NCBI GenBank assembly: GCA_003194525.1
Contig: NBIV01000033.1
Span: 124,001 to 188,000, forward strand
Direction: 5' to 3'
Origin: Gracilariopsis chorda
Taxonomy: Eukaryota > Rhodophyta > Florideophyceae > Gracilariales > Gracilariaceae
DNA: 64,000 bases
The notes under the pieces were generated by a model. That model was not told where the DNA came from. It worked only from the letters and a program-made list of their open reading frames with translations, and ran no database searches. Position numbers and translations under genes: made by a program. Shown piece by piece: positions 18,901 to 64,000 of the stretch. Every line of letters begins with the position of its first letter. Position 1 is the first letter of the stretch.

Positions 18901-21211
18901 GTGCCAGAAGTACAACGATAAGAAAGACCGTTGTTCGTTTTCGATGACGATCAAGACGGTTTCAGATAGTAATAATGGACGAAGCTACGTCGCTGACCTC
19001 ACAGCGGCGAGGCATACACATCCGTCAACCCAACACGGAGCTGTGAAGTATTTAGCTCCGAAAATGAGAGCTGAAGCAATTCACATGACAGGAAAGCTAC
19101 ACATGTCTTTCCAGGACACCATTCGGTACCTCGAAGACAAGTACAAGAAGCCGATCAATCCTATATCTGCACGAAAGCAACTAGGATATGCGGGCTCAGT
19201 GAGTAACCCGAAAGACTTGGAGTGCATGCGGTTGAGCGAGATTCTTATTGAGCTCAATAGAGAGGATCCAAGAAACAAATTCTTCTTTAAGTGTGACTCC
19301 GCTGGACGAATGAAGCTGGCTTGCTGGTCATTGAAAGAGTGGTTGGAGGACTACGAAAATTTTGGGATAGTACCTGGTGTATCCGTTGATTGCAAAGCCA
19401 TAGCAAATCGATATGGGTATCCACTCTTCACTGTGAATGGAAGAGCAAACGATGGGTTCACCTTAACTTTCTTTATGGGTTTCATTTCAGGAGAAACGAC
19501 GGCTGACTTCACTGAGGTGCTGTCCTGCTTTAGGTCGATCATTCCAATGTCACCGGCAATGATAACAATGGACCAAAGCATTCCATGCATCAACGCTGTG
19601 GAGCAAGTGTTTGATAGGTCATTCGTGTCTTTAGATGAATGGCATCTTAACCAGAACCAAATGCGCAACGTGACATCATGGTGCGCCCATATAAAACGCC
19701 AGTCTTGGTGTGACGATATGTCGAGGGACTTGTTTGCTATGCGAAGATCACGAACGGTACAAAACTTTTTGAGACGCAGGGAGTCTTTCCAAAGAAAGTA
19801 CTTTGAACATTTCGGGGAAAGACCTCCAGTTTGGTATCGATACCTTTACTTGAAGAAGCCGCACATGGTCGTGAGCTGCTTTAAAGACCTAGCCGTCCCT
19901 AAGAGGTACCTTTTCCAAGGTACTGGCTACACGGAGGCATCCAACTTTGGGTACAAGGCCTATATTCTGTCTAAGAAGGTTCCCTTCTCTCATATTCCCT
20001 ACGAAATTCGTCGACAAACATTGAAAAGAAACGACAAGCGACAGGAAGCACGCACAAAGTCAGTATCTTCTTTGAGCAGTAGATATCGATCTCTACGAGA
20101 TTGCCAGCTACCGTTACCTGACGCAGTTCTGAACTCCCTTCTACTAGAGTACACGACGTACTCTCTCACGAAGTTCAAAGAGCTGAGCATCGAAAGCGCA
20201 AAACACTTTGCGGTTATCTCAACATCTGTGATCGAGTACGACACCGCGACCTGTTGCGGACTGGTTTTAGAACACGGGAGCTCAATTGGTCCAGTAGCGC
20301 GATTTGAACTGCAGCAGCGAAGACCTCCGACCTCTTCATCCACGATTTTGCAGCCACAGTCTACACCAGTTGTCGTCTTGTTCGCAACTACGGTTACTCC
20401 AACTGATAATGGCCCAGAGAGCAATCTTCTCGCATCATGCAGCTGTCGCATGTCCCTAACAATGGGGTTTCCGTGTAGACACATTGTGAGATGTGCATAT
20501 GTATACCCAGAAGAACTTCTCAGACTACCAGATCTAAGTCACGTTTTGGACGACTGCATCCCCATTCACCAACTTTTTGATCCATACTGGAAAGCATCTG
20601 ATCGCGGAATTTCTGTTCAACATACAAGCGAAGCACGAAAGCAGGCAGGAGTGTATAAAGAAGAAGAGTTAGAAAAGCTGCTGCGCACATCCGCTAGAAA
20701 AGAGACGGATATTGATTTCGATGACATAGTGTGCAAAAAAGAAGACGCGGAGGTGCAGAACTACGTGACGAGAGCAGCTGGAATCGCCCTATTTGATCAA
20801 TGCCACAAACTTGCATCAAGCATGACTATGAATGCGGTGGAGCGCGTCCACCAAATCTTGGAAAAAGTCCGTGACGTGTTATCTCAAGGATCGGTGCCAC
20901 CACTTTCTTTAGTCTCAGACTTAGAGAGCCTTCCTGGTTTGCAAAGAAACCTCGTTGTGACTTCGGCTTCTGGAAATAAGGAACACACAGCGATCAAACC
21001 ACCAAATAAAGGATATGTTAGAATGAAACGCAGAATCAAAGGATACACGGAGAGATTCAACTCGAAGAAAAAACGTACATCTTCTTCATCTTGGGAGCTA
21101 CGAGACGTATGTCAGGAATCATCGCAACGGCAATCGAGTCTCTCTTCTTCTGATATAGACAGAGCACAGCGGAAGGCTCTGAGCATAGTTGAAAGCATTT
21201 CAAGAGGTTAG
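15924..21211 (+). CDS. MULE transposase fused to Ulp1-type protease, two exons
   Basis: Exon 1 is 15924-15948 (MGDLSAHV plus one base); the ATG sits in GCCATGG. The intron 15949-16028 starts GTAAGTAC and ends TTTCGATACAG. Exon 2 is 16029-21211. Joined length is 1735 residues with no stop; the long frame of exon 2 has no ATG near its start, which supports the splice. Domains in order: Ulp1/SENP C48 peptidase (about 140-265) with NEHWGILL His168, FGDSL Asp194 and RQADSYSCGCY Gln240/Cys246; a C-C-HxH module of GCM/FAR1/WRKY type (about 530-580); acidic linkers; a second such module (about 966-1008, ending RHTHP); MULE transposase (about 1060-1300) with Asp in VSVDCKAIA (near 1127), MDQSIP (near 1189) and SLDEWHLN (near 1210); a SWIM finger CSCx(n)CRH near 1480-1494. 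It acts in the nucleus to excise and insert the element. Ulp1-bearing MULEs are known from plants. Confidence 0.92.
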
Positions 21212-21322
21212 GAGGTGTTAGTAGTTGAATCAAAGTAAATTCTTGTTTTAAGAGCCTCCAAGTAACGTACGAGAATGACATTGGACGAGTGAAGGCGCAT
21301 GAAACGTGCAAGAAACGCGGGA

Positions 21323-21667
21323 ATCTGGATAGGATGAAGGAGGTGGGAGTGGGAGTAGTGCGTGACTGTGGTGCTAGAGATCTGGCATCGACGGCGGGAG
21401 AGATGGTGTGCGAATGTGTCTTCAGGTGCGCGATTAGGGATCAAAGACGGATGAACACTTGGCGCTTAGGGGTACGTTGTTGCTGGTTTGAGTTGCTCAT
21501 TTTTGTTTTATTGGTCTACTGGGACAATAGAGGGCTGTGATTGGCCGCAGCAGAATGTGCATATGCCGGTCATTGAGCTGGGTCAGTTTTTTGGAGAGCT
21601 CGTGCTGAGCTGTTCCTTTTCAATCAATTTTTTACGCCGGCTACGCTGTGTAGATTATCCCCTGGCC
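21323..21667 (-). repeat. MULE right terminal inverted repeat
   Basis: 345 bp, reverse complement of the left repeat apart from one missing triplet. It begins about 110 bases after the transposase stop codon and ends CCCCTGGCC directly before the second copy of GTAAGATAGA at 21668-21677. Confidence 0.95.
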
Positions 21668-39184: not shown

Positions 39185-41443
39185 GTGATTCATGGTCGTG
39201 TGTGGGAAACCTGTACGACGTTGAGTTCTCTGAATGATTGTATGCAAATGCATCAGTGGAAAGTGATTGGCCCAGCCGGAGATTTTATCTCACCGCGTCA
39301 CGTTCCTCCAAACATGAGCGCATTAGATTTAATCCTTTGGATGGTTCCTATGCATCATTTGCAGTTCATAGTGAACAGAAAAAAATATTCGGTTAGAAAT
39401 CAAAAACGCTCGGAGGACTTCGGGAGGAGAACTGCTCAAATACTTTGGAATTCTTATCCTCATGACTCGCATTGAGTTCTCGAACAGACGGGATCTTTGG
39501 AGCACAGAGCCTTTTTCTAAGTTTATTCCTCAGCCAGATATTGGTGTTGCGATGTCACGGAACAGATTTGAAATGATTAGAAGTTCAATTTGCTTCAGCA
39601 CAAATGGTGTGACTGAAGAGCAAGGAATCGCGCGTTGGTCCTTCGTAGCAAATTTTGTGAAGGCAATCGATGACCATCGTCGGTCTTTTTTCACGCCACC
39701 ACATGCCTTATGTATTGACGAAGGAATGTCACGATGGAACGGATTAGGCAATAATTGGATTGATGTCGGGCTTCCACAATCTACGGCATTAGATAGAAAA
39801 CCGGAAAAGGGTCTTGAAATGAAGGCCGTATGTTGTGCATGAAGTGGCATAATGCTGAAAATTGAGCTCAATATGGGTCGTAATATTCCGGAACAAGTTT
39901 TTGATTCTGATAACTCCCATAGAACGGAAGTCTTACTTCGCTTAGTGCAACCATGATTTGGATCACGAAGGATGGTATGGGTGGATTTCTTCTTTGCTTC
40001 TGTTAGTACCGCGAAAGCATTACTGGAGAAAGTTTTAATGTTTACTAGAGTTGTCAAAAATGCTACTCTTGAATATCCTATGACACATCTCCCCGAAACT
40101 ATTCTATCGAACAAGGGAGATTTTGTATCTATGCTATCAAAAGGAAGCATTATCAATAATGATATAATGGCTATAATGTGGATGGACAGAGAGAGAAGGT
40201 ATTTCGTGTCAACCTCTGGCACGCTTCATCCTGGTTTACCTACTATTCGAGAATGGTGGAGACGGGAAGGAAATATTTCTAAGAAAGTGGAATTGGAGGT
40301 CGCAATTCCCGAAGTGTGTGAAGAGCATTAAAAAACTGTTCAGTGGTCGATCGCCATAACAGATGCAGGCAATATGATCTGAGTCTGGATGTGATACAAT
40401 CCATCGGGTGTCAAGTACCAGTGGGGTAGTCCATTCGGAAGACCTTTGGCGGGAGCGCGACGAGGGCTCGACCTGAAGGGTGGAAGTTGGGTAACCGAAT
40501 GGGTGTGGCAGCACCAAACCACTAGGGGCGCAAGATAACCAGGCGGGCTTACCGTAACCAATCGGTAGTGTTGGTAGTACGGCGCACATGGGTTAGTAAA
40601 GCCTGAATAGTCTTGACTAAACCAAAAGATTGACTGTAGAAACCAGTTGGTATCACAGTTAGCCAAGAGGTGCTTGCCTTTACCATGCTTGGTGAGGGAG
40701 CACTGCACCCACCTTAACGGTGAGCGAGGCTCAACCTCAGGTGCACTTGGCTACGTGGCATACGTTGGGGCTGGACCTAGTGGCCTGGCCCCACACCACA
40801 GTAGCGGGGTGTCACTACCTATCTAAAATATTTATATAAAATAGTAAACTAGTTAGTTAGCCACTCTAACCCACGTGGCACACTTATCAATTGGTCCAGT
40901 GAGAGTTGCACTGCTCATGGGGTCAGATCTCGCTGTATCACACTGGAGAAGAAAAATAAAGTGAAAGAGTGGTCATTTTGAGTGAATTGCTCTCTTTTAG
41001 CGATTTGTATTGTGGACGCGTGGAATTTATACAAAGCCACAAATGGAACCAGAAACGTGAAGAATCCGCAAAACTTCTATTGCCGATTGGCTGATGAAAT
41101 AATTGAGAATACATGGGATACCCCAGGTCTAATGAATAGAGATGAGCATGAATGTGAAAATGTTCATGAGAAGCCAATGTTTGCAGGCACTGGATTGCAT
41201 TTAATGCGAACGAAGAGACAGAGAAAAACTAAGGATGGCAAGATTACAAAAGCTTTATATCAAGGACGATGCAATTCTTGCAAAGGTAATACAAAGTCCA
41301 AGTTTTTATGTTCTGTATGCTATATCAGGAAGGAAAAAGAAGTGTTTTTATGTCGCACTGGTAGTATTAGATATTGTTTTATGAAACACATTGAAGCGTG
41401 TCACGGTATAACGCAGTTCGGAAGCTGGTACAGATGTCAATAA
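39185..41443 (+). pseudogene. piggyBac-like transposase, broken and interrupted by an LTR
   Basis: Blocks of the piggyBac (DDE_Tnp_1_7) fold appear in order: MTRIEFSNRRDLWS with MSRNRFEMIRSSICFS (about 39462-39600); PPHALCIDEGMSRWNGLG with first Asp and KPEKGLEMKAVCC (39700-39840); VFDSDNSHR region with second Asp; FFFASVSTAKALLEK and ATLEYPMTHLPE (39980-40110); MWMDRERRYFVST (40170-40215). After a solo LTR (40390-40942) comes the C-terminal part: CIVDAWNLYKATNGTRN and a Cys-rich RING/ZnF-like tail (CNSCKGN, CSVC, CFMKHIEAC) ending at 41443. The nuclease part has in-frame stops near 39840 and 39954 and another at 40329-40331. Dead. Confidence 0.8.
40390..40942 (+). mobile_element. Solo LTR, 553 bp, inserted in the piggyBac gene
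   Basis: Begins TGTGATACA and ends TGTATCACA, an inverted pair, and is flanked by the exact 5-bp duplication CTGGA (40385-40389 and 40943-40947). A single LTR left by recombination between two ends of a retrotransposon. Its 3' third resembles the remnant at 37640-37770. Family within the LTR order not determined. Confidence 0.88.
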
Positions 41444-46790: not shown

Positions 46791-47843
46791 TGTAGTGAAC
46801 CTTACTTAGGTGGGAGTGACCTCGCGGTCGCGAGCGCAAAGTAAACTAAACGAATGTTGGTCTTTAAAACCAAAGTTCTAGTCTGACAAACTAGAGCCAG
46901 ATCTGGTCGCAACGGCCTTCGTAGGTTTACGACTCCATCTGGAGAGTAACCAGGCTTGGTTTCAGTACGACTATCCCCTTGGGACCGCTCAGGACATCTG
47001 TGTAAGTACACCGACCGTGGGTGTAACATTTTACTGTTTATGTTGTGTATTCTGTTCCAGGACAGATCTCCGCCCCAGTATTGGGTGGTTCATTGGTTGT
47101 TTTTACCGCTTTATCCCTTGATTCTCGGGTCTGTTGCCACTGTGTGCACGAACCTTGCCCGCTTGTTGCTTGCTCTTTTTCCCCTTCGGGACACTACACT
47201 CGCTGTGTACGCTGTCTACTTCTGCTCACTCGGGTTCTTCTCTGATTTCGTTCCTCTCAGAATTCTTCTTAATCACCTCTACAGGCAAAGCCAGTACGCA
47301 ACGTTGTTGTGAGGTGTACGCGCGGACCTCCTACTCAGGCGAAATGTCCGGGAACGGTGGCGGTGGGTTTTGCGCACGGTGTGTAAGGCCCTGCAGCTAC
47401 CGAGTTGGAAAAGGCGGAACGGTGAAGGTGCAGAGTAGCGCAAGGCTAACTGTGGTGAGGTCAAGTACGGAAACACACGTAGCCCAAAAAGATACCACGC
47501 GCCTAAGCAGGGAGGCCGTACAACGGTAGATATCCGATACGGCAAAGCCTGTACAGGACTTTGACGAGTTGCATCTCCTACTACGACTTAAAATTCGTGC
47601 CAAAGAACTAAGACCAAGAGCGTAGTAGGAAGTACCATGAGTTTACTTGGTGAGGGTGTCGGCCGCGCTAGCGGAGAATAAATATCTAGCTAGGCTGCGC
47701 CACACGGGTTTGGCTTACCGTTTGCTGGGCACTAGCTGCCACCAGCATACACTTTTGCTACTACAAATACTACACTAGCCGACTAGCGGAAGGGCTCCTA
47801 CAGCCAGAAAACCATTCTGATAAACGGTCTTTACTTTTTCACA
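46791..47843 (-). repeat. 3' LTR of gypsy element 2
   Basis: About 1053 bp; on the plus strand begins TGTAGTGAACC and ends TTTTTCACA. The bases just inside (47844-47857) are a polypurine tract on the minus strand (GAGAAGGGGGGGTC), as expected before a 3' LTR. The outer end has a relative at 37585-37655. The target duplication cannot be checked because the 5' LTR lies beyond the window. Confidence 0.65.
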
Positions 47844-47999
47844 GACCCCCCTTCTCATACTTTTGTCCGTCTGCGCACAGCCCTCTTCGATTTCCGTATA
47901 CGGTCTCTTTCACCCGTTCTACTCGACGCGTCCTCATCAGAATCCTCTCGTACTTCATTTTCATCTCGCTTGGTTCTGCATCCCAATTCAAACTCCATC

Positions 48000-48800
48000 A
48001 TGCCGCAGGTTGGAGAGAATTGGGTCAGCCCTGACACAGAGTTCGACCATCGCCGCCTTCCAGGACGCACACCAATTTCCCGTCGTCGGATTGTTCTCCC
48101 CTCTCCCGTCGATGAGTACGTTGCTGCCACAGCTCAGCGGTTCGATGCTTTTCGCTTCTCCGCCATCCCAGTACGTCCGAGCATCAGTTATACGGCAGGG
48201 AATAAACGCATTCGCGACGGTGCATGGGAAGCCCGATGGGTGCACACGCGAATCCGAGTCTATGACAGACCCCACCTAAATGCCGTACGAACGGAACTCG
48301 CCGTATCCTTTGATATGCCGTGGGTTCGGTGCGCACAGGACCAAGATTATCAACACAGACTTGCCGTAATTTTCAGCCGCCTTCGAAATCAATATGAATC
48401 AAAGTCCGACACGGAACCCTTCCCACCACCATGCCACAATCTCCTTACTCTGGTCGCGTGGCGGGCGCCATTAGACAGATTTTACCTCACCTGTGAGCGT
48501 GAGCACTGGGGTGATGACATCAGTGATGAGGCATGCATCCGGAGCTGTCACTCACTGTTCGTCGGATGGCACAACCACGGGTTGGACGATCTTCTTCGTC
48601 CGAAGCGGCAGTGCTTATATCTTCCCGTTCCGCAGGAGGAGCGGATGTTCGACGTCTGGAGGTATCTCTGTGTGCCGACTTCCCCGATTGCAGCATACTA
48701 TTCGGGGGTGATGCTCGCCGAAAGGCGGCTGCCATCCATCGCCTGCACTGTTCTCCAAACGGAATGGGCAGTGTCATGCTCACATTACAACCGACACTAG
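48000..48800 (+). CDS. Antisense accessory frame A of gypsy element 2
   Basis: 266 residues from ATG 48000, on the strand opposite to the element's gag-pol and reading away from the 3' LTR, whose inner edge is 157 bases upstream. No known domain. Blocks shared with the copy in element 1: LPSPVDEYV followed by FDAFRFSAIPV; WVRCAQDQDYQHRL; FPPPCHNLLTLV with APLDRFYL; CLYLPVPQ and VPTSPIAAYY. No transmembrane segment or signal peptide is seen. This frame looks whole while the surrounding pol is decayed. Role unknown. Confidence 0.65.
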   Translation: MPQVGENWVSPDTEFDHRRLPGRTPISRRRIVLPSPVDEYVAATAQRFDAFRFSAIPVRPSISYTAGNKRIRDGAWEARWVHTRIRVYDRPHLNAVRTELAVSFDMPWVRCAQDQDYQHRLAVIFSRLRNQYESKSDTEPFPPPCHNLLTLVAWRAPLDRFYLTCEREHWGDDISDEACIRSCHSLFVGWHNHGLDDLLRPKRQCLYLPVPQEERMFDVWRYLCVPTSPIAAYYSGVMLAERRLPSIACTVLQTEWAVSCSHYNRH

Positions 48801-49194
48801 AAGTGACAGTACGGCTGGTGCATTTATGAAGAAGTGCAACTAAGTTGCTGACAATAGCATAGTAGTACGTGGCTTAGCTTTTTCTTACGTGGTAGCGCGC
48901 CGAGTAGAGAGCATCTAGGCAGTAGGAGAGGCCACGAGAGCTCTATAGAAGAGCTTTCGGAGCGATCAGTAAAGAACGAACGACGGACAGGCGTCCGGTT
49001 GAAGCTCTCTGCACCTCCGTTCTCTCCCATCATCACAGGCAGTGCTGTCATGCTTCACGTTTCTATACGCGGCCCGTAACGGACTACCAATGCAGTTGAA
49101 GTTCTCCGACTGGCGCCTTGGACAAGATGGTGACTTGGACGCTCCGGTTTGACGGCGGTTCAGGCTCTCATGTGAGCTGGTTCTCTTCATCCGG

Positions 49195-49626
49195 GTGCTA
49201 GGGGTCCAAAACCTAGTCCGCGGAACCGCATTCGACGCGGAAGAGGCCAAATCTCTCCTGGATTACGTCGTCATGATCGACTGGGAAAGGACACCGAGCC
49301 CAGAATACTTGTGGTACGACTACCAAGAAGACCATTTCACGGATATTCCAAGGCATCTTGTAAAGCTTGATGACGGCGATGAGTACAGGAACAACCCTTC
49401 CTATCTGCTGGAGTCACAGTGGATGGCCACCCCTCGGGACTACGCTCCACATGATTTTCCACAAGACGCGGAGTTCGTTCGGGAGTGCCTCGCTGGTATG
49501 CAATGGTTCAATACCGTCAGCAGAGAAGACGATGAAAAAGGTACATTGGCCGTCCAGTCCGAAGCGACACATGATTTGGCTCGGACACGCCCAGGCGTTC
49601 GCTACATGCAACAGCGCCGGGTTTAA
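49195..49626 (+). CDS. Antisense accessory frame B of gypsy element 2
   Basis: About 140 codons, 390 bases downstream of A on the same strand. The diagnostic block is LLDYVVMIDWERTPSPEYLW with YDYQEDHF, shared with the copy in element 1. No ATG opens it; an AG lies just before the conserved part in both copies, so B may be a downstream exon of the A transcript (inference). No known domain recognised. Confidence 0.5.
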   Translation: MLGVQNLVRGTAFDAEEAKSLLDYVVMIDWERTPSPEYLWYDYQEDHFTDIPRHLVKLDDGDEYRNNPSYLLESQWMATPRDYAPHDFPQDAEFVRECLAGMQWFNTVSREDDEKGTLAVQSEATHDLARTRPGVRYMQQRRV

Positions 49627-50639
49627 TCGGTCACTATCAAACCAGATTCGGTAGCTGCGCTGCATCACTTCCATCGGAATTCCGTCGTGTCTGTGGAGCC
49701 CGAATTGTCCACAGATAGAATTTATCTTTGAGCAGCACTGTACCAAGCCTATCGCAAGTTGAACGACCGGTGTGGGAGTTTTAAGTGCCGGTATTGGATA
49801 GCATCACGCCCGCACTGAGCCACGCGATGGAATGGGTAGCAGAAGTGAAGCGCCATGCGAGCTTGTGAATTGCTGCGTCTCACCAGTTTAATAATATAAT
49901 CAGTCAGAGGAGGCGTAGTGCTGAGGCTGTGCTCGGGAATGCAGATAGTGTGTTTGCCTTCAAGGAGGCAACCGATTTTATGAGGGGAGTGGCGGTGACT
50001 TTAGTGGTCGAAGCATCGGGTGCCAAAGGAGAGTTGGGCAAGGAGCATGTATTTCCCGCCAATAACAGAGCCGATGGGACAGGTGTTCTATCGTCGGATG
50101 GGAGGCATGGCGATTCTCAGAAGCAAGACACGTGCTGACCGATTGAAATTGATCAAGTAAAGTAAATGAACAATTTTGTGAGCAGTGCGACATACGGTTG
50201 AACTTGTTCATGCGCCCGAGCTCCGAATGCCGGCCAGGAGACCACAAACAGGGCATTTTCCGGAGAGTTCAAATCCACATCCAGATTCGTTCTGCGATGC
50301 ATAGAAGCTGAGATACGGGCAATTCTTTCTTTCGGCCACTCTTTCGGCTTGCAAGCTGGTCTAAAAAAATCTTAACAATTCTGTGGCGGATTATTTGATT
50401 CTCCGTCGTGCGCATTGGGTAACCCTTTTGCGCTGCAAACGTATATGCTTTCCAGGTTAGCTTCTCGAGGAGTGAACCTTCAGCATTGTGGACACCTTTT
50501 CGGAGTCGGTAGTAGAACCACGTTGTCATTGGTACTGTGCGCCGCATCCAGATAGGGACGCTATATCGGGTGCGTGGAACGTGAACGTGACTAACCTTGA
50601 TTAGGGGTCCCGTTCTGGTGCGATGCTAAGATCAACTTG
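49627..50639. other. Element 2 interior between frame B and chromodomain end
   Basis: About 1 kb of retrotransposon sequence. A 92-codon minus-strand frame (50547-50269, sense to the element) starts with ATG and has a basic helical composition (RIVKIFLDQLASRKSGRKKE), but matches nothing I know. Otherwise nothing is recognised. Confidence 0.3.
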
Positions 50640-50777
50640 GATTTTAGGAGTTCCTTGTTCGTCGCTTAGCACCCCTCTTCTCTGTAGACGACGCGTCCTC
50701 GCGGCGAGCCGTTCTTCGGAAATAATGCTCCACAAAGTTGTGTGGAACGTTCCGCTTCGGTTCCCATGTGGGCTTCT
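50640..50777 (-). mobile_element. End of element 2 chromodomain region
   Basis: Minus-strand residues of chromodomain type (TWEP, later VEHYFRR) next to the left boundary of element 1; the preceding part of the same domain lies beyond the other boundary at 61945-62000. This places element 1 within element 2. Confidence 0.75.
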
Positions 50778-51306
50778 TGTAGTGCAATAGACCTAAGGTC
50801 AGAACACTGGCAAGCTGGAGTGCTGAAGTGGTGGACGAAGGACCAGAGCACTACGGGCACGTGTCAAATTTATCCACGTAGGTTAGAGATAATTGTGATC
50901 TGAAGTGTGAACTCCGATGGACCTGGGGCTGCAGTACAGTGCACTGTAGAATAATGTAGTAATTGATTTAACTTATTAGTAGTAACTACCGGTGGTCTAA
51001 AGCGTCTCGCCGACTACATTAGTTGGCTCGAGTGCAGCCAGCCACTGAGGAGTATAGGCAAGCAGCACCTCCGTCCTCTAACCGCCTCCAAGCTTCCGGC
51101 GGACACATGATTCAAATCCATCGTTACGAGTAGTCCCGACCTGTAAGGACCTCACATAATTCCCGACCATTGCGCTTGCACGTCAAAAAGTCCCCAGGAC
51201 GCAACTAGACCCATTGAACGGTAACCTTAGTGGTTGGTACTCTGCCGCCGCTACCCGTAGTAGGTACTACTTCCCCACTTGGTCTTTAGACCAGTAATCT
51301 AGTACA
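50778..51306 (+). repeat. 5' LTR of gypsy element 1
   Basis: 529 bp, TGTAGTGCAATAG ... CTAGTACA. A possible primer-binding site beginning TGGTCCCCC starts three bases after it (51309). Confidence 0.85.
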
Positions 51307-51433
51307 TCTGGTCCCCCGACCTAGAACAGTACAAGGACAGTCGTTTGGAATCTTAAGACCGAAGGAAATCGAACAGTACTTCTACCATTGGACTACTTTT
51401 CGTCGTTTGTTACCTGAACGCAACTGTGAACTC

Positions 51434-53520
51434 ATGGATAACCAACCCCATAACTCTACAACAGACGCCAAACAAGGAACCCCAGCAGCCGCAGTGGCCG
51501 ATTTGGACACTCCTGCACGGGTATCCGCCCGAGGGGACAGTGCAAGTGACCACAGGAGCACGCGCAGCCGTTCCGGTGGACGTACGATTGACCCAGTAGA
51601 CAACCCCAAACGGCTCATTGGGGACTCGCCATTGGTCGCACGACTTTGCGAGAGGGTCGAACAGTTGGAACAGCGGGTCAACCAAAGAAATATTGCACTA
51701 CAGCCTCAGGACTCAGCCGCACTAGCCCTGAATGCCCAAATGGTGGACGAGGTAGCCACTCTCCCATGGCCGCAACTATGTTCTTGGTGTGAGTACCAAG
51801 TGGAGCAATTCCTGAGGGACCATTTGGATAGGGCACTTCGCGACCGCCTCTGCATGTTGGCTGAACGACTAACTCTTCAGGTCGTTCACTTGGATGTCCT
51901 AGTGGATTAAATCGCCACGACCATCCAGGGGGATGTCACACGCCAGGTAGGCCAACTTGGCAGCTCTTGAGCTTTTTCTCAAAGTATACCGTTGTTTTTC
52001 CATCGGTCAGACCGGCCCAGACCCCAGGGAGCAGCTACAGAATTAGCCCCTCGGCTGGGAAACCATCAGAAACGCCCACTGAACCATCCACCGCATGGGG
52101 TAGAGAGACCTCAGAGGCAGAGAGTCCGCGTGGAAGATGAGCCCATTGGTCAATACGGCATTTGGAATGCCTCGGAATACCATCGGGTCAGTGAAGAGCC
52201 TGTCCCGAGGGAGTATGGAAGTGCCGAAGACCAGAGGAAAAAGAAGAGAAACCGAAGGTCAAAGAGGTCGAGCCGTTGGAAGAGAAACCATTCGGACTCC
52301 AGTGATGACGACCATTCAGACTCCTCCAGCACCTCCGATACCGATGCGGATGAGGCAGACGTTCGGCGACTCAGACCATTGGCAACGACTAATGAGCTTT
52401 TCCAGAAGGTCTTGGACGTGAACATGTACCGCCTCTTGGATCGGTTCAAGCGGTACACATCATCGGTCACCGAGAATATTGCTAATTGGGCCAAGAGGAT
52501 GCAAGTGACCATCCAGGACAAGTTTTCTGGGAAGGATCCCATTCCAGTCCTCAGGTTCTTGAGTTCGTTCCAAATGGCCTGTGACCAGAACGGTATCAAT
52601 GGCGGAGCTGCAATGTATCTATTTCAGTTCTTTCTCAGTGTTCAAGCGAAAGACTATGTGGTTGCCAAGATATCTGGGTCGGCCAATCCTGTAGATGCCT
52701 GCGACAGGGAGCTCTAAAGAACCTAAACTGAGGTCTTTCATTGTTTATTGGAGACTTATGCTTCCGATCACCACATAATGCATGCCTATCAGGAAGTCTT
52801 TGGATACCATCAAGGTTCCAATGTGACCAAAACGGACTTTGCTGACCAACTTTGGACACGTGCACGCCGTTGCAGAAACCTTTTTTCTGAAGGTTGGCTG
52901 AAGCAATACTTTATTGCAGTTCTGTTACCAGGCATACGGACTCACGTCCGTAATCAATACACCGCCCATCCGGACCTTTCGCTATGTCAGCTGGTGAGGT
53001 TCACCGAAGGATACGGGAGGACCTATAGGAACCCCCTCCGTGCGGGTGATATGGATACCAGAGGACGCGCCAGACCTCTGGCGAAGGAAGGAAGGGCCCT
53101 TCTGGTCGAGTCGCAGACCGATACGACTCAGCCTTTTGACACTCTGAAACTGCAGACGCACTTGCAGTGAGCTTCTCTTCGACCCCATGTGGTGCACCAT
53201 CGGTTCTGGCCTCAGAGGCGACCACACCATCTGCTCCGGCTACTCCCAGATTTTCTCAAGTGACCCCGCGGAAGGATATTTTTACGAAGTCCAATCAGCC
53301 ATGTTTCATTTGCCTGTCCATGGCCCGTCTATGTCAATGCGTCCAATTTATGCCTGAGGATATCCTTAAGGCCTTCCTGGCCCGTAGAAAGGAGAACTAT
53401 CAGGTGCGCCGCGCGGAAAGCTATTACCGAAGGCCAATTAATCAGAGGACCACAGAGACTCCGGGGAGTTCAAAGTACGTAAAACCCCTTACGACCCCCG
53501 TGCAGTAACCTCAGGTCAAT
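51434..53520 (+). mobile_element. gag region of gypsy element 1
   Basis: Begins at an ATG at 51434 with a Ser/Arg/Pro-rich N-terminus, then an acidic Ser/Asp-rich stretch (near 52290-52360) and a capsid-like helical part (KFSGKDPIPVLRFLSSFQMA near 52530, later RQ-type helices to about 53150). Fossil coding. Confidence 0.7.
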
Positions 53521-53809
53521 ATGCTGGACGAGCCTGCCGATGCAGTCGAGCTCCCTGACCATCAGAACCATCCCGTGGCACTGAAGCCACAAGAAAACGA
53601 CCGGAAAGACGCATAGCGGCGTGCAGTTCCGCTAACACCAACTGCCTCAGTACGCCAGATCGGAAGGCCCGAAAGGAGGAGAAGAAGTTAGAACCGAAGG
53701 ACGGAGATTATCTGGACTCCAGTCACGCGTACGCCGTAGGCCAGTGGAAAGACCTTGAGCAAGCAGTATGTGTCCTATGGAAGGAGAATTATAAAGTACA
53801 CGAGACCCT

Positions 53810-56000
53810 TGGACTGCAAACGAACACCACGCAGGCTTTCACTGCCGTGTTGGACACGGGTGCAGGCCCAAACCTGGTACATCCTAAGGTCTTACCGTTC
53901 GGCTGGGAGAGGATGCTGCAGGAAAGGAAGACGCCAAGGGTGGCGGACGCGTCGCGCAGACCAATAGGTATCTCCGGGGTCATCCCACTTTTCATCCAAT
54001 TGGGACACCTGAAGGTCAGGACTTGGTTTCTTGTATGTCCAAACCTGGAGGCAGAGGGTATCTTAGGGACGAGTTTTCTTGATAGATATGTAAAAGCTAT
54101 CTATCCTGACCAAAAGAAAGTTGCATTCCATCGAGGACCTCCATTTTCCATTGTTGCAGCACGGCCCGGACCCGAATCCACCCCCTCAAGACCGAGGTTT
54201 CCCAAGCGGACGGTTTCCAATAAGGTAAGCTTGGCCAAGACGATAGTAATACAGCCGATGACCCAAGTGGCGGCCGCTGCAGTGTGCAAGTCCTCAGGTC
54301 TTACGTCTTTGCAGAATCATCCCAATTTGGTCACGAATCATTTATCGTTGATGGCCAAAGGAGTGATCAATGTTGCACATAGTAGTCCATTCGTGATCAG
54401 GATGAGCAATTTCCGCGGCAAACACACTAGGCTGCCCAAAGGTACGGTAGTTGGCATTACCCTACCTGCCCCGGTGGCCATAATGCAGGTTCAGCTCAGA
54501 AACCTGCCGTCGAGTAGCGAGCCATTGGCCAATTGGGAGAACGAAGTTAACCTCTGTGAGGATTTGGAGCCCAATAGGAAACAGGTCATTGACTTCCTGA
54601 AGCACTTTGCCGGAATGTGGAGTGGCGAACTGGGACAGATAGATGCGACGAAACACTGTATCGAACTCAAGGATGGAGCCAAGCCGCAGTACCAGCACCC
54701 TTATAGGACAGGCCTGAAAGGAAGGGAAATAGTGGCGAAAGAGATGGAGAAGATGCGGACTGTCGGAGTAATTGAATGTGCCCCACCCAATGAGTCCGAA
54801 TGGGCAAGCCCTTTTGTCCTTGTGGCCTAGAAAGATGGCACTCTACGGTTTTGCATTGATTTCCGGAAGCTCAATGCAGTGAACAAATGGGAAATTTATC
54901 CTATTCTGAGGATGGATGACTGTCTTGATTCCCTGGGGGAGGCGCAAGATTTTACCACGTTGGACGCAAATTGCGGCTACTGGCAAGTACCAATGGACGA
55001 CAAGGCTAAGGCCTTGACTACATTTACGACCCACGAGGCACTGTTCCGATTCAAGTACATGCCCTTCGGACTGATGAACGCACTGGCGACCTTCCAGAGG
55101 GCAATGGATATCATACTATCCTGGGTCAAATCGAAGTTTGCACTGGTCTACTTGGATGACATCATCATGTTTTCGAGGTCCGTTGGTGAACACTTTTCTC
55201 ATGTGAAGACTGTCGTAAGGTTACTACAGCAGGCCCGTATCACTCTAAAGCTGAGGTTTTTCTTCCAGCCCTCTGTACACTATCTTGGCCATGTGGTTTT
55301 TCCTAGTAAGCTCAAAGTGGCAAAAACTATTACAAAGACCATTACGGATGTGAAAACCCCGAGGAACCACACGGAACTGCAATCCGTTTTAGGTCTATGC
55401 AATGTGTACCGAAGGTTTGTCCCTGGGTTCACGAAGATTGCTTCTCCGCTGAACGAGATGCTCAAGAAAAGGACCCCTTCGGAATTTGATGACCTAATGG
55501 ACGAGCAGTTCGAAGCCTACCAGAGCCTCAAGGACCATTCGCTAAACTTCATAATTTTGGTCTTGCCCAGGGCAAACAAACTGTACATACTCGATACTGA
55601 TGCCCCGGCGACCCACGTTGGATGCGCACTCCTCCAAGAGCAGGATTCTCCGAAGGACTATCGATCGATTGGATACTGGAGCCGTTCGTTAACGAAGACC
55701 AGAAGGGACTACAGCAAGTCCGAATGAGAATGTTTCGCTATTGTCTGGTCAGTTTTACACCTGCGGCCTTACCTGGACGATACTCAGTTTACCACTAGGA
55801 CAGACCACAATGCCCTCCAATGGCTTTTGAATATGAGCGATGCGTCATCCCTTTTGGCCCGCTGGAGACTCCAGTTGGCCAAATTTAATTACGACGTTAC
55901 CTATAGGCCTGGCTTAAAGCACCAAGCCGCCGATGCATTATCTCGTATCCTGACCGACGGCACGGATCAAACCCGATTGGACGATCAGATTCCCACCATA
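53810..56000 (+). mobile_element. Protease, reverse transcriptase and RNase H of gypsy element 1
   Basis: Aspartic protease signature DTGAGPNLV near 53855; reverse transcriptase from about 54640 with LDANCGYWQVPMDD, FKYMPFGLMNALATFQRAMD and LVYLDDIIMFS; RNase H from about 55560 with the DTDAPATHVGCALLQ and ADALSR blocks. Typical Ty3/gypsy order. Fossil coding with several breaks. Confidence 0.85.
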
Positions 56001-56089
56001 TAAGATGGTCAATAGGATGCAGACGATGATCCGGAAATGGGTTACTTGTTAGGAGAAGTTACCACTAGCCAAGGGAATTAGGCAGAACC

Positions 56090-57480
56090 TAAGGTCATGT
56101 TATGCACTATTGACTGGGAAGACCCATCCTTGAAAGTCCACGTGGCCGAAGCGGAAATAGGAGACCTCACCCTCATTTCCCTCGAGGAGTTCCTTGTGGC
56201 CCAGAAGGGTGATGAACAGTGTGTACAGTGGGCTAATGAAGTCGGGTCCCTTTGGTCTTTGTTTGATTATGACCGTCGTGGAGTATTGCGCCGCCGCTCT
56301 CCACTTGACGGGGCAATACAGCGCGTTGTTCCAAAGGCCCCTCAGGCAAGGCTTCTATATCTGGCTCATTACCCTCGGTTGTCTGGCCACCAATGCGGGA
56401 TGAGAATGTATCAGACCTTAAGAAGATTCTTCTATTGGCCCCTCATGGCCAAAGACATAATGGAGACCGCATAGAGATGCGCAGCATGCGCTAAAACCCG
56501 GGGGACACGAGCGCTGCACCATGGGAAGCCTAAGTTATTCTCCGCGGCGGGACCTTTGGAATTCTTTGCTATGGACATCCTAGGACCTTTCCCTAATTCG
56601 ACCCATGGGCACTCCTTCATCTTGGTTATTACTGACTGGTTTTCCAAGATGAGGCGTGCTATTCCCCTAAGGTTCACCATAGCAAGTGTTGTTGCCATGG
56701 TGTTTCTGGTTCTTTTGATGTACCCCTATGGTCTGCCTTTATATCTGTTGACCGACAACGGCCCACAATTTGTCTCAAAGTTCTTCGAACATGTGAGCTC
56801 GGCCTTAGGTCTGAAACACCTCCTGACCACCGCCTACCATCCGCCGACCAATGGAAAAGCTGAGCCTTATAATAGGACGCTGGCCTCTAGGTTGAGCCAC
56901 TATGTGGCTGAGCACAAGTTGGACTGGAATGATTACGTCTAACGTTTGGTCTATGCCCACAATAACCAAGTCCATTGTCCACGGGTACGGTACCCTTTGA
57001 ACTTACCCTGTTCCGGGCACCTCCGCCCTACATGGTCGACCTACAGGATACAGGCATCCCTCAGGACGTTACTGGCGAAATGACACCAGCTCAGGTCAAA
57101 AGGTATTGCGTAAGCGAATCGATTCTATCCTGAAGGCCGCCCAGACCCATTTGGACAAAGCACAGAAGCGCTACAAAGCGGACTTTGATAAAGCCATCTG
57201 GTTTGTACCATAGTGTTTCTCCGGAGACTATGTCCATTTGGACCTGCCACCCAAAGAAAAACACGAGCCCGAGAACATTGCAGCCAAGTTGGTACCTCGT
57301 TCCACCGGAACATATATGGTAATCAAGTCCACTAGCCATACGGTTACAATAGACTAAGACGGCCTTCAGGATATTGTGTCGACGGACCGCGTGTCCATGG
57401 CGACTAGCCCGTCTGTCGGCCCAATGCACCAACCTACCGGAAGTGCGAGCGTAGCACAGGCCGTTGCGCGCACATCCCCA
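56090..57480 (+). mobile_element. Integrase of gypsy element 1
   Basis: HHCC-type zinc region (HYPRLSGHQCGMRMYQTLRR near 56370, then CAAC), catalytic core (AMDILGPFPNSTHGHSFILV near 56570, LLTDNGPQFVSKFF near 56750, PTNGKAEPYNRTL near 56850) and a C-terminal region with a GPY-like stretch to about 57400. Fossil coding. Confidence 0.85.
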
Positions 57481-59267
57481 CGCGTTCTGACCTAGCCACC
57501 TCCCGCCCCACCCTCACCAAGTACTACAGTGGTCGACGCGCCCCCCTCCAGGCTTTCATTACCATCTGGACCGCCGACCTCGGCGGTGCCGCCGGTTTCA
57601 CGTGCCATTACAGACGGCCCTCTTGGTTCTCAGGTCAATAAAGCGGGTCCACAGGGTGCCGTTGCTGAAGACTCGGCGCAACATGCCGCGCTCCGAGGAA
57701 CAGACCATGGATACAGCGGCCGCAAAATCGATTCGTCAGAAGACGACTATGGAGCCTTCCGGGACATGTATTTACCAGAGGAGAACCGCTGCGAATAAGT
57801 CGTAGACCGCATTGCCTCCACTGGACTTGACAAAAAAGGTAAGGTGCTCCACAAAGTCCGCTGATATAGCTATGGCCCTGAGGAAGACCACCAGATACCG
57901 CCTGAAAATATCCCGGCGAATTTTATTAATCGCTACTGGACGAAAATGGGCTACACAAAGCGCGATCTCCGAAAAGGGCGTATCCTTGACCACACATTCA
58001 CTGCTAAGGCGTCCCAAAACGACGCTGGCCGATAGGAACCCGCTCGTCTCACGGTGCATCGGCAACCCGCCTCTTGGCCACGCCGCCCACTCTGTCTTCC
58101 TCGACAGGCCCGCAAGGAGAACAGTGGCAACGCCAACTTTGAACCCATGGAACCGGCCTTAGAAAAGCATACCCGAAGGGTCTGTGAAGTGCAAATCGCA
58201 CTTTGAGACCCAAGGTGTAACTCTACTAAAAGCCATCCATGGGAAACTAACCGTTTTCCAGGGCCAAAAGCGTCAAAGTTCACGATAGCCTACCCGGGAA
58301 TGCCCGCTGATGTCGATACAACAAGATACCCGCGTGTTGTACCGTGCGAGAATCACACCCCCTGGCCTCAGGACCGCCTGTATCAACGGCAAACCATTAA
58401 TCTCGGAGACCGGCCCAGGGCCGCCCAGCGGACATTCTCGCTAAACCCATGGGGCCATCCGGAATGCCCACGTGGTATCAAACAGCGGACTGTGCAATGG
58501 CATATCGTGGCGGTGCCCCATTGGTCTACTATTGGCACACGGAGCGTGCCCTTAAGGAGGGGTGGGAAATTATGGCCACAAGATTATTTTGAAGTCGCCA
58601 AAAACCACCTCTTACCAATAGGACTGCCCGCATGCCACGGCGTGTCCTCGAACTGCCTCCCACGGCACCGCCTTCACCGTCTTTCTCAGGCCGAACTATG
58701 GCCAAAACGAAACCGCAGCGACTTCAGACCCCCTTAATTGAACTTCAAAGAAAGGTCCCAAGGGTTCTGGGGGGTGCGAATGATGGCCAAAGGTGTACGT
58801 TTTGACCTCAAAAAAACACGGACCATGGGACTTGAGTAAGGACCCAGGGCCTGAAGGTTAAAACTAACCAGAACGGGCGCAAGGAACCCACCCTATGCCC
58901 CCACGAGGAATGGAGTCCCAGAGGATGTGAGGCGCGTAAATAATGCCTGAAGGCCTAACAGCTGACCTTACAAACGTAGAAAACTAGGTCTACATTAGAG
59001 AAGGGGGGCCTGAAGGACGAATATAAACGCAGACATCCCGATGTAGGACCTATGTGGACAGTATTGAATACTCAAGGCTTTACTTAGTATGCCAGCGACC
59101 AGGTAAGCCGAGGGAACAGCAGAAGAACCGACGCCCGCGCGCTTGCTAGCTGGGCTATGGCCCGACGCGGACTAGTGAGCCAGAGAATGGTCTGTGTCCG
59201 TCAGGTTCAGACCGAATCGGCTATCCAAGTCGGCCGCCACCGAAGTTGAAAGAACTTTAGAGTTCTC
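57481..59267. other. Element 1 interior between integrase and antisense frames
   Basis: 1.8 kb, Pro-rich near 57500-57620 on the plus strand, otherwise without recognisable domains. May contain the remainder of the pol C-terminus and untranslated sequence. Confidence 0.4.
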
Positions 59268-59900
59268 CTACAGAATGGTCGCCAATGCCTCCTTCACCTC
59301 TCGGTTCCTCCCCACCAGGGACTCGTACCGAGACGCCTTACGAACCCACGACTGCACCGCATGCAGCACCTCGACGACCCCAATGGGCTCGGTTACGCCT
59401 GCCGAACGGCAAACCCCGGTGAGCTCCTCATAGGCTCGAGTTACAGCCAAAGGTATCGCAGGCCGCGGATGCAGCGCTGGCGCAACGACCGAAGGGGCAG
59501 CGACGGTGACTGCCAAAGACCCGCCGGGACTAGTAACTGTGGTTGTTGGACCAATGGACGTCTCGGCATGCTCGAACACAGGCTGCTCTGAAGGTGGCAC
59601 CCAAGAGGAAGGAGGGACAGGCATGGTTGGCGGACCTTCGGAAGGAGGTTGCAAGCCAGCGGCATCAAACCCAATGGCCTGCTGATAATAGTCCAGGATG
59701 GTCCGACGCGGTACGTCGACTGGGGTATCCAATAAGGGCTTCACGTCGTAGGCCTTCCCATCCTTGCGACCAAAAGGATGCTCCAGAATCGGCCAGAACT
59801 CGTCTGCGTCGTAGTCGTACCACAGGTATCCAGGGGTCTTCGCCCAATCGACCTGCAGGACATAATCTAAAAGCTCCTCCGTGTGCTCCGCGCTATACAA
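59268..59900 (-). mobile_element. Antisense accessory frame B of gypsy element 1
   Basis: About 210 codons on the strand opposite to gag-pol. Conserved block LLDYVLQVDWAKTPGYLWYD plus YDADEF matches B of element 2. The rest is longer than in element 2: a Pro-rich linker (PPSEGPPTMPVPPSSWVPP) and a helical C-terminus (VLHAVQSWVRKASRYESLVG). No ATG at its start; an AG lies about 20 bases before, in line with a downstream exon (inference). Confidence 0.5.
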
Positions 59901-60005
59901 CGTCCCTCGGACTATTTTCTACAATCCTAGCTTGTGAATGAACGCGATGAGGTGGGGAGGCAGGGGCATCAATCGGCCTTCAGGACTCGGAATGATTTCG
60001 TCATT

Positions 60006-61163
60006 CTAAATAAGTTGGTCGGCCTCACGGACATTCGCATGCACACCGTTACGAGCAGTATCCAAAAAGGCATTGAGGTAGAATACCGCACATTCTGCAA
60101 AGAAGACCTGCCAGGTAAGCCAGGGGAGCCGCTGATGGAAATCTCCTCGGAGTTGGGTGGTGTGATAAGCCACAATGGACGGAGTGGGGACCATGAGGAG
60201 ATTAGATACATGCAAAAGCGACGCCTCAGGGCTCGCAGCGACCACAGGAACTGTAAGATATACGTTGGACCTACAAGACGGCGGCATGTCGGGGTATTTG
60301 AACTGATGACAGCAGAAAAAGTACTTCAAATTCATCCGGATACGGCCGTCGGGTTCGATCATGTCATTTCAATAGGACCTGTTGGTAATCCAGTACAGCT
60401 GATCATAAGGCAGCTTGTAGCACATCAGCCCCAGGAAGTTGTGGTCGCCAGGCGGGAAGGAAGACCGGGGGTAACCTTGTAAGAGATGTAGGTCCGCGAG
60501 CAGCTGGTTAACTCTCCATTGGTATTCTTTTTCTTCGTCGCATCGGACGAATGCCATGTTCGGGAGGACCACTGTACGGCAACGCGCCACCGCTCAGACG
60601 TCCGCAGGGAGATGTAGCCAACTGTTACACAAAGAGGTCTCTCGCGCTTTCTTCTTCTCACGGATATAAATCGGAACTGCTGCGAATGTACGGGCGTCCA
60701 GATATTCGTCCTCGTATCGGATAAATTCCTCGACGTAACTGGGCAAATGGGTACTCCTTACGCCCATCGGATTACACCCCAAGGTATGGTCATACGTCTC
60801 CGCAGGATGGGCGTACGTGCTGCTGGCGGGGACTAAAGCTATTGGGGAGGATTCAACAGTGACGGCCAACCACGGGATGCGTTCACCGTCTTCAAACGGT
60901 GGGCGAGGGCCACAAGGGGTTAAATACGAATGTGTTGCAAATGACATGCCGAGTGGAGTAACCGCAAAACAGAATGGAAAAGGGTCGTAGTGGGAGGTTT
61001 CTGGGTGCACTATAACGTGGATACCAGCGGTTTCCGCGCGCAATCGCCGTGGTGGTAGAAGGGACAACCCGCAAGAAGCGGAGCGAACGAAGTGGTTGCG
61101 AACGCGCTTTAGCGACACCCCAGTCGTAAACTTGGGCCCACAATGGAGCCACAAATGATGCAC
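60006..61163 (-). mobile_element. Antisense accessory frame A of gypsy element 1, degraded
   Basis: Spread over more than one frame, with blocks colinear with A of element 2: LPSYVEEFI followed by LDARTFAAVPI (near 60715), FVRCDEEKEYQWRV (near 60550), FPPGDHNFLGLM with LPYDQLYW (near 60430), VYLTVPV and VPTPSIVAYH (near 60270-60180). It begins about 250 bases from the 3' LTR. Broken, about two or three times. Confidence 0.6.
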
Positions 61164-61419
61164 CTATCCCCGTGGCCACTGGAATTCGATACAAAAAAGG
61201 AACGCAAGCACGACCAATGGGCGATCCATGTTGCTTCCCAGCCCTTACGAAGGCTTACTAGGGGGGTGCTCAATTAGTCAATCGACCATTTGGATTGCGA
61301 TCAGCGCTAGTGCAGCTATCGCTGCCAACCGTTAAACTGTAGTACACGGAAATGGGCGTCAAAGAAGAGGGGGCCGACGGTGAATTCTGCCGAGGCCGCA
61401 GAGACTAAGGAGAAGAGTA

Positions 61420-61944
61420 TGTAGTACAATAGCCTTGAGGTCAGATGGCTGGCAAGCTGGAGTGCCGAAGTGGTGGACAAAGGACCAGAGCACTACTGGC
61501 ACTTGTCAATATTAGCCGCGTGGGTCAAAGATAATTGTGATCTGAAGTGTGACCTCCGGTGGACCTGGCACTGCAGTACAGTGCACTTTAGAATAATGTA
61601 ATATTCTATTTAATTTTTTAGTAGCAGTTACCGGTGGTCTAGAGCATCTCGCCGACTATACTAGATGACTCGAGTGCAGCTGGCTACTGAGGAGTATAGG
61701 CAAGCACTATCTCCGTCCTCTAGTCGCCCCCAGCCTTCCAGCCGACACAGGCTTCTTAGCCACCGTTACGAGTGCGCCCAACCTGTAGGGACCTCAGAGA
61801 ACGCCCGCCCATACTGCACGTCAGAAAGTGCCCATGACACAACTAGACCCATTGAACTGTCACAGTAGTGGCTGGTACTCTGCCGCCGCTATCCCTAGTA
61901 GGTACTACTTCCCCACTTGTCCTTTAGACTAGTATTCTACTGCA
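61420..61944 (+). repeat. 3' LTR of gypsy element 1
   Basis: 525 bp, TGTAGTACAATAG ... CTACTGCA, preceded by a purine-rich tract (61402-61418). Same orientation as 50778-51306. Confidence 0.85.
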
Positions 61945-64000
61945 CTTCTTGAAGCCGTACCACTTAATGCGGACCAGTTCTTCTCTGTCTTTGGCAACTC
62001 CGTGGTTGATGACCGTCTCGAACATCCATTCCTTTCCTGCCGATGTCGGATCAGAAGACTTGGTGTTACGGTTCTCCGCGTCTGGGACTGTGCCAGGGTC
62101 AACCGATACCGGGTTTTCTGTGATTGCAGAGCCCCCAGATATTGGTTTGAGCCGGGATTCCAGGACTGGCGGTTCCGTTCGCCCTTCATTTTCCTCCGCT
62201 TCTTCTAGTGCGACCGGGTTTGGTGAGACCTTCTCGGAAACTGGAGGTCCAGCGGCCGTCAACTGGTCAATAATAACTGTATCGTGTTGCCCGTCGACGT
62301 CGAGGGTGACCGTACTTTCGGTAGGACGTATGACCTTGTAGGGCCCTTCTGAGTTCGGTATTAGTTTCTGGACGATGTTCTCGTACTCGGTTGATGCTTT
62401 TTTCCGAGGCGGGATGCCCAAGTAAACCACATCAACCTCCTTAAAGATCGGTTTGTACCGTATTTGGGAGTCGTAGAAGGCTTTGTAGCGCTCCTGTGCC
62501 GTACCTAATATTGTGTAAGCCAGCTTCATGAGTTCCAAGATCCAGGCATGCTTGACGCGCTTGGTTTCTTCTGGTGTCGGAACCAGAGATGTAGCTTGCG
62601 GAAGTGGGGATGTAAGGTCATCCAGTACGATCCCTGGAGGGTGCCGAGTGAGGGAGAGGTCGAAAGGAGTGAAACCAGTTGATCGCTGAATTTGCAGGTT
62701 ATACCCCTACACGAGGGGCTAAATGAGATTGTCCCAGTTCTCTTGGTGTTCGGATACACACTGCCGCAGGCGGTTGATCAACAATTTGTTAAACCTTTGG
62801 GCCTTCGCATTCGTCTGCGGATGATAGACAGCTGTAAGTACACGCTTAATTCCGAGATTCGCTGCAAGCAACTCGAAATACTTGGCCACGAACTACAGGC
62901 GGTTGTCGGTAAGTAGGTAGGTAGGAATTCCGTAAGGGTAGACCCATTTCTCCAACAAAGCGATGGAAACGTCAGTCGCTTTCGTATCTGACAGCGGTAA
63001 GGCTCTGGTGAGCTTTGTAAAGTGGTCCGTTATTACCAGCATATACTTGCTTCGGCGTCCTGTTTTCGGCCGTGGGCCAAGGATGTCCATATCCACGAAT
63101 TTGAATGATCCTAATGCCGGAAACAACTTCAATTATTTCTGATTCTTGAAGTAGGTTCCGCGAACGGCTCGATATCGTTCTGATTGTGAGACTGTGTCAT
63201 ACACATGTTGTGACATAAAGGGCCAGAAGAGGTCCCTTCGCAATGTGTAATAAATCTTGACCGAGCCCAGTTTCCCAGCCAGGCGTGGATAGTGGGAGAG
63301 GTAGAGTACTCTCTTTAGTAGAGACTCCAGTACGACCCGTTGTATGGCCCAATCAATTGGCGAAATTCTGCATACTATTCCGGAGCGGTTGTAGTCGAAC
63401 TGGGACTTCGGATCTCCAACTGATAGGGCTTTCTCCTTGCAGAACGGCTCTTCAACTGGGCGGCGATAAACTCTTTGACCGTTATCGGGGTGACGTCAGG
63501 TTGTTTCAGTACGGTTGCCATATCTTCCAAGGGTACTCCTGTGTCCGTAGTCGTCGGAAAACTCACCAGTACATCCTTGTAAACTTTTCCGTTCACGGTA
63601 ACATCTGTGACGACATATTTCGACTCGGATTCCTATTCGTACGCGAACAGAAATGGTATTTCGTCCTCGACGCGCGTATAATCGTTCCCGTTGGTCGCCA
63701 TGTAAGACGGTGCGTCTGCGGACAAATGCTTGATTGCGGGGTGGTACTGGACTTCGAAGTTGAACTCCGCGAGACGCAAGTGCCATACTGCAAGTCTTCC
63801 CGTCGCATCGGTTATATTGAGGAGCCAACGTAAGGCATTGTGACTCGTCCGAACGGTGAGCTGTTGTCCTTCCAGGTAAGGTCTCAGGAGCAACATACTC
63901 CATACGATGGCCAAGCATTCTTTTTATAAGGAGCTTTAATTCCTTTGCGGTGCGGTTAGTGAACGGCTCCAATATCCGATGGGATGGTAGTCCTTTGCAT
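61945..64000 (-). mobile_element. Element 2 pol part: integrase and RNase H
   Basis: Minus strand, from the window end: RNase H (LAEFNFEVQYHPAIKHLSA near 63740), zinc-region and linker, integrase core (LGPRPKTGRRSKYMLVITD near 63080, IPTYLLTDN near 62910), integrase C-terminus (FYDSQIRYKPIFKEVDVVYL near 62460; GPYKVIRP near 62340) and the first half of a chromodomain (LVRIKWYGFKK near 61960). Fossil coding with several breaks. Confidence 0.82.

Follow-up and report, generated by a model that had tools for sequence, protein, structure and literature searches.

A conserved antisense reading frame between pol and the 3′ LTR of chromovirus-type gypsy elements in the red alga Gracilariopsis chorda

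Introduction

Why would a retrotransposon keep a long open reading frame (ORF) on the strand opposite to its own genes? This question is raised by a stretch of 64,000 nucleotides of the Gracilariopsis chorda genome (contig NBIV01000033.1, positions 124,001 to 188,000; hereafter the window), which contains two elements of the gypsy group, element 2 on the plus strand being nested in element 1 on the minus strand. A first-pass annotation, made from the letters of the window, had noticed that each of them carries an antisense coding region between the integrase and the 3′ long terminal repeat (LTR), and that the proteins encoded by the two regions resemble each other. Both observations are borne out here, the regions being present in the two elements and their proteins clearly similar. 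The same annotation described each region as a pair of genes, A and B, possibly spliced together. We find instead that A and B belong to a single antisense gene, referred to below as the aORF, of which both window copies are broken. The best explanation of what follows, to which we give a probability of about 0.6, is that a clade of chromoviruses carries a third, antisense gene encoding a trans-acting nuclear accessory protein.

One antisense gene, conserved as a protein

The G. chorda genome (91.3 Mb in 1081 contigs) served as the search space. It contains at least 130 matches to A of element 1 and at least 163 matches to B of element 2, and in intact copies A and B lie within a single open frame, 738, 774 or 829 codons long, which does away with the gene pair. 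The 738-codon frame is found in ten near-identical copies (family 1), one of which, C196, is interrupted by a TAG, while in a second family 774 codons are stop-free in five copies and 829 in one. Each of the window copies is damaged in its own manner. In element 1 the first part of the aORF (A, 48000-48773, plus strand) begins with a methionine at 48000 that aligns with those of other lineages. It is separated from the second part (B, 49038-49623, plus strand, with an open frame at 49153-49623) by a 264-bp insertion at 48774-49037, bordered by GGCAGTG repeats at 48767-48773 and 49038-49044. Across this point eight of 11 related copies are continuous, the other three having no alignment there, and no second copy of the insertion was found in the compared loci or in the remaining window. 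In element 2 the aORF occupies 59121-60809 on the minus strand (recovered in the genome search as C33:183658-184809 and 183121-183633, minus strand), where B and then A share one frame interrupted by stops. Its A domain holds two TGA codons, and the longest antisense stop-to-stop frames between 59.2 and 61.4 kb measure 216 and 189 codons, so the 266 open codons once attributed to A of this element were not found.

Does this frame encode a protein? Eight chosen pairs of copies were compared in all six frames; six of the pairs join different lineages or subfamilies, and two are internal to family 1. The aORF frame contains no stops, while every other frame has 5-44 stop-bearing codon pairs, and in seven of the eight pairs it also has the lowest ratio of nonsynonymous to synonymous differences per site (pN/pS). 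In the eighth (L009/L013) it ties with one antiparallel, sense-strand frame, whose third positions coincide with those of the aORF and whose pN/pS is low throughout, as a shadow. For L033/L035, pN is 0.203 and pS 0.757, with differences of 0.25, 0.20 and 0.54 at the three codon positions; for L064/L071, pN is 0.400 and pS 0.706 over 636 codons. Because the frame is free of stops where the others are not, and because synonymous change is near saturation while nonsynonymous change is far lower, we take the aORF to be a protein-coding gene kept by purifying selection across several diverged lineages and open in young copies. The proposal of a conserved antisense accessory gene in chromovirus-type elements is thereby strengthened, since pN/pS between lineages lies well under that of the other frames.

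Other readings of the frame can be weighed on the same evidence. That A and B are two separate genes joined by splicing was suggested by their standing apart in element 1, but within the gap lies an insertion that is specific to this copy and has target-site repeats, and in intact copies the two form one unbroken frame. With stops accounting for the damage in element 2, splicing is unnecessary and the reading is hardly tenable. If the sense strand encoded an env-like or other protein, of which the aORF would be the shadow, one would look to the sense frames of 174, 163 and 177 codons in the C69 copy; yet the three sense frames each hold 8-36 stop-bearing codon pairs in the eight comparisons, with pN/pS above that of the aORF frame in all of them except the pair in which one sense frame ties. 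A chance ORF and sense-strand coding are thus both rejected on the stops and pN/pS values of the remaining frames, and we regard the latter as almost certainly wrong. An antisense regulatory RNA might be all that matters, the long frame being a by-product, and non-coding antisense transcripts are indeed known from other elements such as Drosophila micropia, according to the available text of PMC7264820. This is very improbable given the distribution of differences over the codon positions of L033/L035 and a freedom from stops that is confined to the aORF frame.

Position of the aORF in intact elements and across the genome

A young, intact element is represented by the C69 copy, whose 478-bp LTRs are 99.8% identical and flanked by the target-site duplication ATCCC. 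It has a gag frame of 753 codons (Retrotrans_gag below the cut-off, E 0.0053) and a pol frame in which Pfam recognizes reverse transcriptase (RT), RNase H, integrase and Chromo domains. RT, RNase H, an integrase core and a C-terminal Chromo domain in one frame, together with LTRs and a target-site duplication, identify it as a chromovirus. On L071 the ORF lies at 2711-4927, between the LTR (1911-2388) and the end of pol (about 5756), so that the antisense frame is situated between the pol end and the 3′ LTR. The antisense frame likewise follows the pol end on the opposite strand in two further copies, C156 and C144, whose LTRs are not delimited. Two lineages carry the Chromo domain, with E-values of 5.7e-10 and 3.6e-9, the C144 copy being among its carriers.

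This order recurs across the genome. Among the matches listed, which merge into 162 aORF loci and 151 integrase loci, 88 aORF loci have an integrase within 8 kb, and in 85 of these the integrase is downstream and antiparallel, with a median gap of 903 bp; the exceptions are C12:252272, C12:262126 and C145:140763. The further antisense copies in gypsy elements that the first-pass annotation called for therefore exist. The unpaired loci (74 of 162 for the aORF, 66 of 151 for integrase) say little, since both lists are incomplete. No relative of the aORF was seen outside such elements, with the same 74 loci lacking a listed integrase. Antisense ORFs located between the pol end and the 3′ LTR and opposed to gag-pol define the class called aORF-3R, and the position is found in the C69 copy, the antisense orientation in the 85 loci.

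One related gypsy element does without the aORF. It covers L069 5473-10000 and L070 1-4833 (C43:133472-142833), has 870-bp LTRs that are 100% identical with a CATGC duplication, and sits inside an aORF-bearing element, between pol and the aORF. Only 424 bp separate the end of its listed pol frame from the LTR, and no Chromo match was found within the scanned stretch. Its pol is 42-53% identical to that of aORF-bearing elements, which among themselves show 48-70% over differing stretches; the decayed integrase piece of element 1 shows 31-38% to all compared pol sequences. Over the whole shared length, L070/L071 (47.6%) and L071/L074 (47.8%) are almost equal, which leaves a single gain of the aORF in a sub-clade a mere conjecture. 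In three lineages, among them an aORF-less one, the primer-site-like sequences TGGTCTCCCGACC, TGGTCCCCCGACC and TGGTCTCCTGACT occur two or three bases past the 5′ LTR. The primer-site-like sequence TGGTCYCCYGAC is common to L072, L069 and the window from 51307 onward. Lineages with and without the aORF perhaps use the same tRNA primer.

The predicted aORF protein

From its likely start, a methionine shortly ahead of a DHR/DHT motif and aligned wherever the sequences extend to it, the aORF measures about 640-720 codons. In an alignment of nine sequences, about 370-400 residues form a conserved region, followed by a proline-rich linker and finally by a C-terminal stretch which weak AlphaFold models draw as helical. 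Of four full-length proteins in the comparison, three possess a short basic motif of the form KRQR, KRPR or KRAR, and this basic C-terminus makes a nuclear role plausible.

Pfam has no family for the aORF, whether it is queried with the four window pieces, whole proteins, halves or the nine aligned members. The nine-member scan went to E 10, a range in which HMMER filters drop most weak hits, and TRP28 (PF04195) matched none of the nine. What did appear was sub-threshold noise: zf-C2H2_11 (E 0.074), SIP (0.19) and APAF1_C (0.27). A sequence search of the Protein Data Bank (PDB) returned no solved relative (best E 0.089), and no relative was found in IMG/VR and GTDB contigs. Among 5.8 billion proteins there were two matches, P0001 and P0002, and a second protein-database search, which scored the 7994 candidates sharing most words, gave the same two. 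P0001 has 674 residues, is 35% identical and comes from a contig of 2530 bases. In P0002, DnaA domains (PF11638, PF00308) are joined to the C-terminal part of an aORF protein, and it is probably a chimeric assembly.

Natural loss of the aORF

Some copies have lost the gene. The region from the pol end to the 3′ LTR was used as a DNA query, for which 40 of 136 candidates were scored, so that the counts are lower bounds; they leave out the contig pieces C960 and C2:1-2309 and the sister copies of 83-88% identity. In the C69 family at least 12 copies keep the aORF region. Eight span the full query, C67 and C124 are without its last 47 and 193 bases, and C43 and C18 are broken nearer pol. The aORF (735-738 codons) is open in nine of the 12.

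At least 18 further copies, on 18 different contigs and 98-100% identical to their intact siblings, share a single 1927-bp deletion that removes upstream sequence and aORF residues 1-582. In eight of these 18 the pol frame runs for 1500 codons free of stops, and in one more it carries a TAA. Since so many near-identical copies share one deletion, the aORF appears dispensable in cis. Other losses were seen as well: 2005 bp in C292 and 2668 bp in C4, both in the C69 family; about 1337 bp, roughly the first half of the aORF, in C295 of a sister lineage; and residues ~40-595 in C289 of the second family. Five different deletions thus take away all or much of the gene. Nine-base repeats, AGCGGGGTG and AACCGGCCA, at two of the junctions suggest that these deletions arose by template switching during reverse transcription, while the C292 and C295 junctions show no shared stretch longer than five bases in the L071 sequence. 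Removal as spliced introns was considered and set aside, as no clear GT-AG ends were visible by eye at the four junctions inspected.

What could the antisense gene do?

If the aORF indeed encodes a trans-acting accessory protein of the chromovirus clade, its antisense transcript would begin in or beside the 3′ LTR, and the protein would enter the nucleus, self-associate through its C-terminal helices and, working in trans, assist or regulate the element at the level of its RNA, its cDNA, its integration or its expression. Because such help would be shared, siblings that have lost the aORF could still amplify as long as intact copies exist beside them. An AT-rich tract, tried as a sign of an antisense promoter, is present in all four LTRs inspected; it is uninformative because the LTR of the aORF-less element has one too. 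More tentatively, and well short of even odds, the aORF would represent an undescribed, TRP28-independent family of antisense nuclear proteins that serves as a shared good in trans for the clade, with the copies deleted by template switching living as parasites of their intact siblings. If so, a retroviral-type accessory gene and its natural cheaters would be found together inside one genome.

Several observations weigh against a helper gene of this kind. Selection is modest among closer copies: in pairs at least 70% identical the ratio of nonsynonymous to synonymous rates (dN/dS) is 0.34-0.98, and in family 1 its median is 0.62 for the aORF frame against 0.66-0.90 for the others. This is as expected of decaying copies, and it is not strong by itself. 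Three of the 12 whole copies are damaged, C196 by its TAG, C67 by 18 stops and C124 by 11, the last two being probably frame-shifted. The youngest family has, among the matches listed, at least 20 deletion copies (three deletions) against at least 12 whole ones, an excess that also fits a gene useless or harmful to its element. The deletion copies are putatively separate and recent insertions, as judged from their internal identity and their 18 contigs. In the L074 lineage the protein has no KRxR motif and ends in an RG repeat. Lastly, AlphaFold on P0001 is unusable (mean pLDDT, its per-residue confidence score, 39.0 with a six-row alignment and 32.9 with the single sequence), and at such values, too low for comparing folds, the fold and the helices are weakly supported.

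Could the antisense protein then restrain its own element, as a form of copy-number control whose loss lets deletion copies spread faster? The counts in the youngest family would agree, as would the loss of all or much of the aORF in C295 and C289, which belong to a sister and to another lineage. However, a self-repressor should be purged by selection among copies, and the aORF has been kept through lineages near synonymous saturation; the copy numbers of one family, moreover, cannot separate repression from help in trans. We therefore hold this to be unlikely. The aORF could also be a passenger, captured from a host or a virus and of little or no use to the element, in keeping with its repeated loss without loss of amplification and with the related gypsy element, described above, that lives without it. 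Against this are purifying selection across lineages, the uniform position and orientation at 85 of the 88 loci that could be assessed, and the lack of any relative found outside such elements, with 74 loci not assessable; we consider it distinctly improbable. Selection between lineages, as read from the sequences, speaks against both the self-repressor and the passenger.

Layout of the window and other elements

Element 2 extends from 50778 to 61944 on the plus strand, just past the integrase of element 1, with CTTCT duplicated on both sides (50773-50777 and 61945-61949). Its 5′ LTR (50778-51306, 529 bp) is followed two bases further by the primer-site-like TGGTCCCCCGACC, and its 3′ LTR (61420-61944, 525 bp) is directly preceded by the purine tract AAGGAGAAGAGTA; the pair is identical at 439 of 525 aligned positions. 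The RT and RNase H frame (54831-55727, plus strand; Pfam RVT_1 and RT_RNaseH_2) has an RT 70% identical to that of the C69 element, and the integrase frame (56475-56942, plus strand) shows 67% identity to its C69 counterpart.

Element 1 ends in a 3′ LTR at 47308-47843 on the minus strand, its partner lying beyond the window. The outer end is the TG terminus at 47308, where homology stops in 11 of 11 copies and the flanks become unlike; the inner end, 47843, is deduced from a CACA terminus and, in minus-strand reading, an abutting purine tract. The LTR is thus of about 536 bp, where 1053 bp had been assumed. What remains of pol (integrase and RNase H, 61950-64000, minus strand, ended by the window edge) yields pieces at 61927-62706 and 63636-63923, of which the integrase piece is without a match in Pfam and was recognized through its 31-38% similarity. 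Among the window elements, Pfam matches to RT and RNase H are limited to element 2.

No tRNA genes were found in the 64-kb window. Elsewhere in it, a Mutator-like element at 15484-21667 is bounded by 345-bp inverted repeats that are 100% identical (15484-15828 and 21323-21667). Its plus-strand frame of 1724 codons (16037-21211) matches the Mutator-like (MULE) transposase and SWIM domains and, below threshold, the Ulp1 protease (Peptidase_C48). Decayed frames at 39375-40331 match DDE_Tnp_1_7, a transposase family which we take to be of the piggyBac type (E 3.4e-17 and 0.0018, the latter below the cut-off), and a minus-strand fragment at 46104-46394 matches the reverse transcriptase family RVT_2, presumably copia-type (E 8.3e-10).

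Comparison with known antisense genes

The aORF-3R class has been described in plants and one fungus, according to the available text of PMC7264820. In flowering plants, antisense ORFs of the TRP28 family (PF04195) are present in 97% of Retand clusters; Retand is a non-chromovirus gypsy lineage, and TRP28 is reported from flowering plants only (PMC11963269). The same source also states that the role of the Retand antisense ORFs is unknown, that some active elements have defective ones, and that Smc-type domains occur too (PMC11963269). The G. chorda elements differ from these in carrying a Chromo domain and in having no PF04195 match even at E 10, and distant homology to TRP28 may nevertheless exist. 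Because of the missing TRP28 match and the chromovirus hosts, the aORF protein is set apart within the class: it would belong to aORF-3R and is apparently unrelated by sequence. Among the literature matches listed, no title or abstract opening reports such an ORF from the elements of red algae or from chromoviruses, and no account of this protein turned up.

Similar in general design is gene23 of maize Grande, an antisense gene with its own promoter and a nuclear protein, while Boty of Botrytis and Sclerotinia provides a fungal element with an antisense ORF (both as presented in the available text of PMC7264820). Both resemble the aORF in position and orientation, Boty also in occurring outside plants; the likeness is one of description. 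HBZ of human T-cell leukemia virus type 1 (HTLV-1) is an unrelated and much smaller protein, from infectious retroviruses. It is the nuclear product of a retroviral antisense gene, as mentioned in PMC11963269, and is likened to the aORF by analogy only, in that a nuclear regulatory protein is encoded in antisense.

As of 2025, the role of the antisense extra ORFs of plant gypsy elements was still given as unknown in the text available to us (PMC11963269). What is new in G. chorda is the set of five aORF deletions, one of them common to at least 18 copies that are 98-100% identical to intact siblings. A single genome thus offers young intact copies, diverged lineages and natural loss variants of such a gene. 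Together they allow a direct look at its role, through the transcripts of whole and deleted siblings, the location of the protein and the amplification of the elements that keep or lack it, in a class of genes known until now from plants and, with Boty, from a fungus.

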